Positions 5,043 through 13,928 of a stretch of DNA of 64,000 bases are shown here, piece after piece. The notes below the pieces were generated by a model. That model did not search any database and was not told where the DNA came from. It saw nothing but the letters and a program-made list of their open reading frames with translations. The stretch is taken from NCBI GenBank assembly GCA_903858015.1, contig CAIOGZ010000018.1, forward strand, positions 62,001 through 126,000. Reading direction: 5' to 3'. Each line of letters starts with the position of its first letter. Positions within the stretch are counted from its first letter, which is position 1. A program made the position numbers and the translations under genes. The DNA comes from an uncultured cyanobacterium. GTDB lineage: Bacteria > Cyanobacteriota > Cyanobacteriia > PCC-6307 > Cyanobiaceae.

Positions 5043-5306
5043 GCCTAACTATGATTTGGGAGGTTCCGAGAACCACGCCGAGAACACCCCTCCTTTTCCG
5101 CAAACCACGCTGCAGCATGGGGCTGGAGACTCGAAAACCATTGCAGTGCAGGGCTCCTTGACAACGTTCAGCCAAGTGTAGGGGTGGTTTGCGGGTCCGA
5201 TAACCACATGTTCGCTACGATACACAGGCCGGATCGGATGACCAGATCAGCCACAAGTATGATTGTAGGCCAAGGTGCGAAGTCTGACTAATCTGAGCCT
5301 TCGAAC
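5043..5306 (-). repeat. 264-bp cassette-length repeat, copy 1
   Basis: First of three related units. On the minus strand it starts at the GTTCGAA core that ends an attC-like site and finishes at a GTTAGGC core in front of the AlbA_2 gene. By eye it is about 93 percent identical to copy 2. It contains local hairpins (GTGGTT...AACCAC and GGTTCTCGGAACC). Reading frames are not conserved with synonymous changes between copies, so I treat it as non-coding: either a cassette without a gene or a leader shared by cassettes. Confidence 0.8.
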
Positions 5307-5467: not shown

Positions 5468-6222
5468 CTAGAGCCACCCCAAAAGGCGAAGTGCAAGGAA
5501 AAGCGCGCCCCCGGCAGCTAGCAGTCTCAGAATGATTCCGAATATTGATGGTCGAGCCAAGCGCGCTTGACTCCGTGCTTGCATTGGTGCTGGCGTTAGT
5601 CTGCCACTAGCCAAAGCAGTCGTAATACATCTTTGGAGTACACGTGCTTCTGGGTGACTTGGATACCGGGTGAGGAACTCCTCAACCTTATATAGAACCT
5701 CTTCTAGCTCCCATTCCGACCGTGCAGCAATCATCTGCTGGCGGATAACTGACAGTTCCTCGGACCGCCGTTCTGTGAGGAGGGCACGGCGTAGTTGATC
5801 GTTATTATTGGAAGCTGAGCGTGCTATTGCACGAACCACTTGTTCTGCAACACGTTCTAAAACCTGCTCTGTTGAAACTGCCATCTTTCCTGCAAGTGTT
5901 GGAGAATACGCTAATACATCTTCTTTAGATAGGTTGTGCCATATCGGTAATATAACTTTCTGGTTATCGTCCTCTCTTGCTACAAGGCCATCGAGTTCAC
6001 GATTAGTCCATACCTTTCTAAGAAAATCAGGACTCAAGATCACAAGTCCGAATCTAGACGCAGATAGACCATAATCTATACTACGTCTCAAACTATCGCC
6101 TACCGTCAGTCAAACTCGTCAAGCCATACGCGAAAGCCTCTACTCTCAAGATAGGCTGCTAAAGGCGCGGCAACTTGGACCTTGTCTTCGCTCGCATGGC
6201 TTATAAACACGTCGTAGTCCAT
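5468..6222 (-). pseudogene. TIR-domain protein with C-terminal membrane helix, frameshifted (integron cassette)
   Basis: From ATG 6222 the sequence reads MDYDVFISHASEDK, the first strand of a TIR domain, and continues to VWLDEF before a one-base loss near 6110; restoring it joins to LTVGDSLRRSIDYGLSAS and the long open frame starting at 6091. This frame holds ILSPDFLRKVWTNREL, where the Glu is the usual TIR NADase catalytic position, then a helical region (about residues 110-200) and a last hydrophobic segment IILRLLAAGGALFLALRLL. Restored length is about 250 residues. TIR proteins with a membrane helix are typical NAD-consuming effectors; here the gene is probably off unless the shift is a sequencing error. 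Confidence 0.75.
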
Positions 6223-6341: not shown

Positions 6342-6605
6342 GCCGAACTCTTTATTGGGAGGTTCCGAGAACCATGCCGTGAACACCCCTCCTTTTCCCC
6401 AAACCACACTGCAGCATGGGGCTGGATACTCGAAAACCATTGCAGTGCAAGGCTCCTTGACGACATTCAGCCAAGTATAGGGGTGGTTTGCGGGTCCGAT
6501 AACCACATGTTCCTTGCGATACACATTCCGGATCGGATGACCAGATCAGCCACAAGCATGATTGTAGGCCAAGGTGCGCAGTCTGACTAATCTGATCCTT
6601 CGAAC
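6342..6605 (-). repeat. 264-bp cassette-length repeat, copy 2
   Basis: Same unit as copy 1, with identical length. Bounded on the minus strand by GTTCGAA at one end and GTTCGGC at the other, and followed by 119 bases before the TIR start codon. Near-identity with copy 1 extends across the whole unit and drops outside it, which places the boundaries at the core heptamers. Confidence 0.8.
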
Positions 6606-9812: not shown

Positions 9813-10078
9813 AGCTAACTCTTAATTGGCAGGTTCCGAGAACCACGCCCCAAGAGCACTCCCCTTTCCGAGAACCACGCTGGGGCATCGGGCTGGCTAA
9901 CCGCAAAACCATAGCGCTGCAGTGCTCCTTGGCGAAGGCCACCGAAGCATAGGCGTGGTTTGCGGGTCCGATAACCACATGTTCGTAGCAATACACAATC
10001 CAGATCGGATGACCAAATGAGCCTTCAGCGCGCTTGTAGGCCAAGCTACGCAGCCTGACTAATCCGAACCATTCGAAC
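9813..10078 (-). repeat. 264-bp cassette-length repeat, copy 3 (divergent)
   Basis: Third copy, 266 bp between a GTTCGAA and a GTTAGCT core on the minus strand. It is clearly related to copies 1 and 2 along its full length but more diverged, with small insertions in the region of the two GGTTCTCGGAA motifs. It precedes the Abi_C-like gene. Confidence 0.75.
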
Positions 10079-13157: not shown

Positions 13158-13326
13158 GCCTAACGCTGTATGGGCGGACCGCATAACATCCCACCAGGTC
13201 ATTCCCCTTTCAGCCTATCATGCTTTAACCGGTTTGTACTGATGCCTCAAATCGATTGCACTGCAAGGCTTGTCAAGGATGGGGTCGTTCCGGCCAAGCA
13301 TGATGGACGGTCCGCATAACATCCCA
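13158..13326 (-). other. Candidate attI recombination site of the integron
   Basis: Between the integrase relic and the first cassette. Two direct copies of a 24-base motif containing GATGTTATGCGG (on the minus strand; plus-strand 13303-13326 and 13170-13193) differ at only two or three positions, like the repeated integrase-binding sites of attI. The proximal one is followed after about 13 bases by GCGTTAGGC, a perfect core at 13164-13158 where cassettes would join. Orientation agrees with the array. Identification rests on layout, not on homology to a known attI. Confidence 0.55.
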
Positions 13327-13369: not shown

Positions 13370-13928
13370 CTAGGAAAAGAGAAGATCTGCAGGGCTTTTA
13401 ACATCAACCACTCCACGATTGAGTACATGGGTGTAGATCATCTTGGTTTTTGCGTCGCTATGTCCAAGTGGCTGCACGCATCGCTTTCTGTATCTGGCTG
13501 GCATCGATGTGGTGGTATCTGAAAGATCCTTCTGGTGCAGTTCGTACACGCTCGATAAGTGTGACTTTAACGACGCCTTGAGGCTCTCCGGTAACATGGT
13601 GATTCGATCTTTATCCCCCTTTCTATCCCGAACCACAATGGAGTTTTTCTCCAACTCCACATCCTTAATCCGTAGGCAAAGCGCCTCCATGAGCCTCAAT
13701 CCACTACCGTAAAGTATTTGAGCTACCAAGGCAGGGGTGCCCTGCAGATTACTGAATAGGAGCAGCAATGCGCCAAGGGCCTGATCTTGGCTGGATGCGC
13801 TAGGCTTTTCATTCACTGCGAGGTGGGTAAGGAAGGCATTGATCTGGTCTGATGGTGCGTTTTGCATAACGCCTCACCATTATTTCCTCGCGATAGCGCT
13901 CCAGCAGTCCTGGTGCACGGATGTTGGG
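13370..13928 (-). pseudogene. intI: Integron integrase (IntI) relic with internal deletions
   Basis: The main open frame (13370-13867, 165 residues) contains unmistakable IntI blocks: INAFLTHLAVNEK (N-terminal domain), LYGSGLRLMEAL with the first catalytic Arg, DRKGDKDRITMLPESL, and LGHSDAKTKMIYTHVLNRG with the box II His and the nucleophilic Tyr. Compared with about 320-340 residues in the family, three blocks are missing: most of the N-terminal SAM-like domain, the linker before LYGSG, and the segment that includes the HTLRHSFAT box with His and the second Arg. Upstream in another frame, 13868-13928 reads LLERYREEIMVRRYAKRT, the start of the N-terminal domain. The enzyme must be dead. Confidence 0.85.

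Follow-up and report, generated by a model that had tools for sequence, protein, structure and literature searches.

The analysed stretch of 64,000 nucleotides (G000:C18:62001-126000, hereafter the window) belongs to a draft genome in 100 contigs, with repeats at contig ends, and carries on its minus strand an array in which a short open reading frame (ORF) lies over a decayed integron integrase gene (Table 1). In a profile search, this ORF matches the integron integrase family TIGR02249 of NCBIfam with 144.6 bits (E 4e-42), which is below the curated cut-off of 265 bits for a functional IntI; it also matches Pfam Phage_integrase and the N-terminal SAM-like domain. The catalytic set R...HxxR...H...Y is incomplete, HxxR having gone with the fourth of the deletions described below. 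An initial annotation had read the ORF as an integrase relic with internal deletions that keeps recognisable catalytic blocks, lacks the HTLRH box and has its 5' end in another frame, and the TIGR02249 match together with the alignment to a complete IntI bears out each of these points: LYGSGLRLMEAL, LGHSD and YTHVL are all present, the HTLRH box is removed, and the true N-terminus lies in a different frame. On these features, the ORF is assigned as an IntI pseudogene. Another 3' intI fragment lies elsewhere in the window.

The intact relative that the initial annotation proposed to look for is present in the same genome. Contig C15 carries the sole complete IntI found there, IntI-A (327 aa, 457 bits to TIGR02249), which retains the HxxR box and aligns nearly end to end, over residues 12-323, with the solved integrase IntI4 (2a3v). 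The DNA of the window copy is ~92% identical to the C15 copy, with four blocks missing, and the window unit as a whole (942 bp) aligns at ~92% to the complete unit L038:5712-7056 (1345 bp). IntI relatives occur in Synechococcus, Cyanobium and Vulcanococcus, from which the genus is taken to be picocyanobacterial. A second type, IntI-B, sits at the end of contig C37; it is 59% identical to IntI-A, is open over 314 codons according to the search table and lacks ~31 residues around the IntI-specific region. The cassette gene after its attI looks TIR-like by eye.

Table 1 Features of the integrase relic, its array and related copies (window positions unless a contig or locus is named)
Feature	Position	Strand	Remarks
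Fragment of another, older intI (residues 173-233)	14292-14104	-	tblastn E 3e-9; stops at CACC|GTT; relatives read CACCGTTGGCGTGACG
Whole intI relic unit (leader, decayed intI, attI)	14105-13164	-	Both edges at G^TT: left GTTCGAAG, right CAGCG^TTAGGC
True 5' end of intI, 29 codons, MNDPNIRAPGLLERYREEIMVRRYAKRTI	13937-13851	-	Other frame; tblastn 83% to complete IntI residues 1-29
165-codon chance ORF over decayed intI	13867-13370	-	IntI frame except ~16 codons between D3 and D4
D1 junction, 71 bp, frameshift	13849-13850	-	Common to window, C11 and C18-end copies
D2 junction, 108 bp, in frame	13755-13758	-	Common to window, C11 and C18-end copies
D3 junction, 130 bp, frameshift	13513-13518	-	Common to window, C11 and C18-end copies
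D4 junction, 107 bp	13468-13471	-	Window and C11 only; removes HTLRH box, restores frame lost at D3
attI-A (putative), downstream of intI	13369-13164	-	Direct repeats 13303-13326 and 13170-13193; crossover CAGCG^TTAGGC at 13164/13163
First cassette ORF after attI, 110 aa	13109-12777	-	Start counted from sequence
IS66-type transposase gene	12758-11220		Adjoins first cassette
attC hairpin GGCTAAC..GTTATGA	10315-10260	-	Read from sequence
attI-B module copy 1	9819-10078	-	79% over module positions 2-259
attC GGCTAAC-AACATCATTCACCCGACCCG..GGGCGGGTGATGATGAGCG	6684-6604	-	Directly left of module copy 2
attI-B module copy 2	6348-6605	-	Reference copy in module comparison
attI-B module copy 3	5049-5306	-	93%
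attC GCCTAAC..GCGTTAGAC	3287-3198	-	Near far end of array; strict attC scan, none in shuffled control
Another 3' intI fragment	45657-45520	-	61% identical to IntI-A residues 279-324
Complete IntI-A	C15 43865-44848		327 aa
IntI-B	L037:8934-9815		Contig C37
~36-bp HxxR insert	L038:10949-10984		Also L041, L165, L168, L170, L174, L223

In the window, the relic unit heads a cassette array that combines intI, an attI and attC sites on one strand. Cassettes and intI thus share a strand, and attI comes after the intI stop codon, which is the arrangement of an inverted integron; in the C15 array, too, canonical attC sites follow downstream on the strand of intI. No Pfam family was matched by the longer ORF around the first cassette ORF. 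Further along the array, cassette genes at 9769-8795, 7958-6876, 6091-5468 and 5034-3877 (-) match PADLOC candidate defence families, namely PDC-S32 (E 3e-36), PDC-S15 (weakly), PDC-S66/ThsB, which is TIR-like (E 5e-36), and PDC-S50 (E 2e-16); the TIR gene looks frameshifted near 6100, and two other cassette genes tested gave no PADLOC match.

The DNA alignment resolves the missing parts of intI into four deletions (D1-D4) in place of the three losses counted at first, and the earlier suggestion that they were in frame holds for the 108-bp loss only, the other three of the four being out of frame. The true 5' end is in another frame because the 71-bp loss shifts it, and the ORF stays open and regains LGHSD..YTHVL because the D3 and D4 losses cancel in frame; the ~16 codons between them (DTTTSMPARYRKRCVQ) are non-IntI sequence. 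Sister copies of the unit lie on C11, at the end of C18 and on C85, the last of which probably holds the continuation of the C18-end copy, itself at a contig end of the draft assembly. D1-D3 are identical in size and place in the window, C11 and C18-end copies, and the C15 parent has none of D1-D4. The C11 copy carries D1-D4, one deletion of its own and a frameshift, and the C18-end copy has an in-frame stop. Identical deletions at other loci mean that an already broken gene was multiplied, and since three deletions are found at one locus and four at two, the frame was broken first and later partly restored by chance. Read from these alignments, the order is D1-D3 first, putting the downstream part out of frame, then D4, and then renewed multiplication of D1-D4 copies.

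The substitutions fit this order. Differences from C15 that are common to all relics (the stem) fall on codon positions 1/2/3 as 1/2/9, whereas those on single relic branches after the deletions are spread evenly (12/11/12; Fisher p 0.017, on small numbers), and these counts fit a gene that was under selection, then dead, then copied. A 38-bp segment, missing in C15 and the window and present in C11 and the C18-end copy, is at odds with a simple deletion tree; the copies may have exchanged sequence, or the loss may have occurred more than once. The sizes of D1-D4 and the extra C11 deletion cluster (71, 107, 108, 123 and 130 bp), and microhomology at their junctions is slight or absent. Separately, decayed intI copies from different lineages and species carry a palindrome-rich insert of ~36 bp (TAGTGGCTCCGCCACGCTGGCCTGCGGCCAGGTAGC) at or near the same HxxR-box codon.

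The copied unit extends beyond the gene on both sides. The ~206 bp behind intI belong to it, and this tail ends at CAGCG^TTAGGC, the form of an integron crossover. The fold of this end is no better than that of shuffles (z 0.11), and given its direct repeats and the lack of support for a stable attC-like fold, we treat it as attI; attI sites throughout are putative and were assigned by conservation and crossover. At the right edge, 15 units of several species, in G000, G001, G005, G019 and G036, lose similarity at G^TT, and each continues differently. At the left edge, the C15 unit starts G^TTAGAAG directly after a gene-less attI-B module that itself ends at G^TT; this flank and module recur in G005, but there another cassette comes next, which makes the site an empty one. 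The left neighbour of the C11 unit is the attI-A-like 3' end of another attI. The window unit starts at CACC|GTT inside the older intI, whose relatives read CACCGTTGGCG there. A search of the window and of C18:60000-79999 for a displaced 3' half of this older intI found none, so the left join may represent a deletion scar. When the relic unit and one module were scanned for promoters, each gave a single weak match that did not stand out clearly from shuffles.

The right edge lies at G^TT in all units. The left neighbour is an attI in C15, C11 and G001 and an attC in G060, while the window, C18-end and G029 units have no clearly recognisable att site there. For attC sites left of the units we used a home-made detection with a terminal-stem score, which replaced a minimum-energy score that did not discriminate. 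Of the 25 left flanks tested, units and modules together, nine attain a score that 4% of the control GTT positions also show (binomial 3e-7; controls from the same arrays, cut-off chosen after the scores were seen). By this score, only about a third of the tested left edges are attC-like, the others being attI ends or unrecognised.

An independent case is provided by IntI-C, a second integrase 66% identical to IntI-A, whose conserved leader starts at G^TTAGGCGTA in G001, G060 and G029. Its left neighbour is the end of an ftsY-like gene (named from the C-terminal peptide read by eye) followed by attI-B in G001, a canonical attC in G060 and unrelated DNA in G029, for which a search for an intact orthologue of an interrupted chromosomal gene found none. 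G062 and G036 have the same ftsY-attI-B site without the IntI-C unit, so that empty sites exist for this unit as well as for the C15 unit. With three different left neighbours and empty sites, the IntI-C unit has the appearance of a cassette. Against this stands that most intact intI genes of the genus occupy fixed chromosomal positions and lack a left edge of cassette type. Among 80 IntI loci surveyed across many phyla, attC-like sites lay mostly downstream of intI, as read by a detector that cannot tell the strand of palindromes. One locus from an Acidobacteria MAG (L094) has an attC-like hairpin ~420 bp upstream of intI and an attC-like site also downstream, a possible integrase cassette in another phylum. 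In one genome of the genus, G023:C1 carries five copies, of near-equal score, of another tyrosine recombinase gene (1519080, 1984327, 2162496, 2302952 and 2978763).

Gene-less modules of ~257 bp, G^TTCGAAGGATCAGATTAGTCAG...GGTTCTCGGAACCTCCCAATAAAGAG^TT, are present in 11 near-full-length copies with fixed ends in the source genome, and further copies with the same ends occur in other species of the genus. Several stand directly after attC sites of the GGGCGGGTGATGATGAGCG type. They carry attI only, no attC, and good agreement between their attI-B and the attI that follows intI-B on C37 is confined to the two repeats; possibly they are deletion descendants of intI-bearing units. Orphan attI sites form a further group, with orthologous loci in G001/G005 (L165/L170, L167/L172), G001/G005/G036 (L168/L171/L174) and G001/G019 (L169/L175). 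Here, at most the 3' end of intI survives, the upstream regions are ~88-94% identical over ~650-2500 bp, and the sequence directly after the crossover varies from species to species, which suggests cassette exchange at these sites by an integrase in trans after their own integrase was lost.

Quite probably, then, intI+attI units and their deletion derivatives have been moved as gene cassettes by an active IntI, a movement that we infer from the pattern of copies and edges. Since attI follows intI, the leader-intI-attI segment is arranged like a gene cassette, starting at ^TT and ending at a recombination site ...G^. As a plausible mechanism, an active IntI, for which the complete IntI-A on C15 is the candidate, would circularise leader-intI-attI and insert the circle at attI, attC or secondary sites. 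The excised circle would join the attI crossover to the leader, giving CAGCG^TTAGAAG for the C15 unit and AATAAAGAG^TTCGAAGG for the module. Provided that attI is intact, copies lacking parts of intI could still be moved in trans, and a deletion series would lead from the complete unit to the D1-D3 unit, the D1-D4 units (window, C11) and possibly the gene-less 257-bp modules. Mobility of the unit is plausible because attI-ended cassettes work in the laboratory with IntI1 (PMC12901181).

We consider it unlikely that the copies instead reflect ordinary pseudogene decay of resident integrons, in which old platforms were duplicated by segmental duplication or homologous recombination and the right edges arose from cassette turnover at attI. 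Duplicated platforms with different cassettes would also give sharp right edges at attI, many intI pseudogenes have been ascribed to intragenomic duplication (Nemergut et al. 2008, PMC2426708), the distribution of the 38-bp segment, which contradicts the deletion tree, could result from exchange between copies, and several species have orthologous orphan attI sites that retain 3' remnants of intI. However, platform duplication leaves unexplained the left G^TT edges beside attI or attC ends, the empty sites in G005 (C15) and in G062 and G036 (IntI-C), and the fixed 257-bp attI modules after attC sites. Spread of the deletion copies by another mobile element is very unlikely: the IS66-type transposase gene next to the first cassette offers a candidate, but the DNA immediately flanking the unit in the C15 and C11 copies is unrelated, the edges correspond to integron crossovers rather than IS ends, and neither IS ends nor target-site duplications were seen at the unit edges. 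A functional shortened recombinase or regulatory IntI fragment under selection has a negligible probability and is rejected, since the 165 open codons with three retained catalytic blocks lack HxxR, have their N-terminal part out of frame and include 16 foreign codons, the sisters are broken by a stop or frameshift, codon positions show no bias after the deletions, and the 5' leader occurs in no other genome among 41 of the genus, so that the case named by the initial annotation as speaking against a relic, close relatives with the same short protein under purifying selection, was not found.

Cassette movement by IntI could have wider consequences. We give even chances to the idea that integrase-carrying cassettes are self-spreading integrons, in which an inserted leader-intI-attI circle would found a new integron at once and derivatives down to the 257-bp modules would remain as non-autonomous passengers, supplying further attI sites of which some would be orphan sites used in trans. 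The spread of intI+attI platforms is poorly explained, as transposons account for clinical mobile integrons and not for many sedentary ones. If intI travels as its own cassette, the integron's own reaction can create new integrons, intI pseudogenes can multiply, and integrase-less arrays with a usable attI become understandable; intI and its site moving as one cassette, with broken copies still duplicated, would be an unexpected route of integron spread. No description of intI as a cassette was found in the open-licence PMC literature, whose coverage is incomplete.

In being non-autonomous, internally deleted copies multiplied in trans, the relics recall MITE-like transposon derivatives, whereas the proposed process is site-specific integron recombination instead of transposition. 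Among integrons, the delta-attI-type cassettes of mobile integrons carry an attI-derived recombination site instead of attC (PMC12901181, after Partridge et al.), and architectures with two equal attI1 or attC sites are excised at >97% (PMC12901181); there, the cargo is a resistance gene, whereas in these chromosomal arrays of cyanobacteria the place of the cargo is taken by intI itself, which may be complete, decayed or absent. The inverted integrons of Treponema denticola and relatives share the layout, with intI transcribed towards attI in the same direction as the cassettes, and the consulted parts of that account mention no joint movement of intI and attI in cassette form (PMC3607928). 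Pseudo-integrons and intI pseudogenes have a broken intI, often beside a near-identical functional copy, for which intragenomic duplication was proposed (Nemergut et al. 2008, PMC2426708), and the crossover edges and common deletions suggest here a mechanism for that duplication. Finally, Vibrionaceae superintegrons contain short gene-less cassettes, some with promoter activity (PMC11014356); the 257-bp modules differ from these in carrying attI, not attC, and may add insertion points inside the array.
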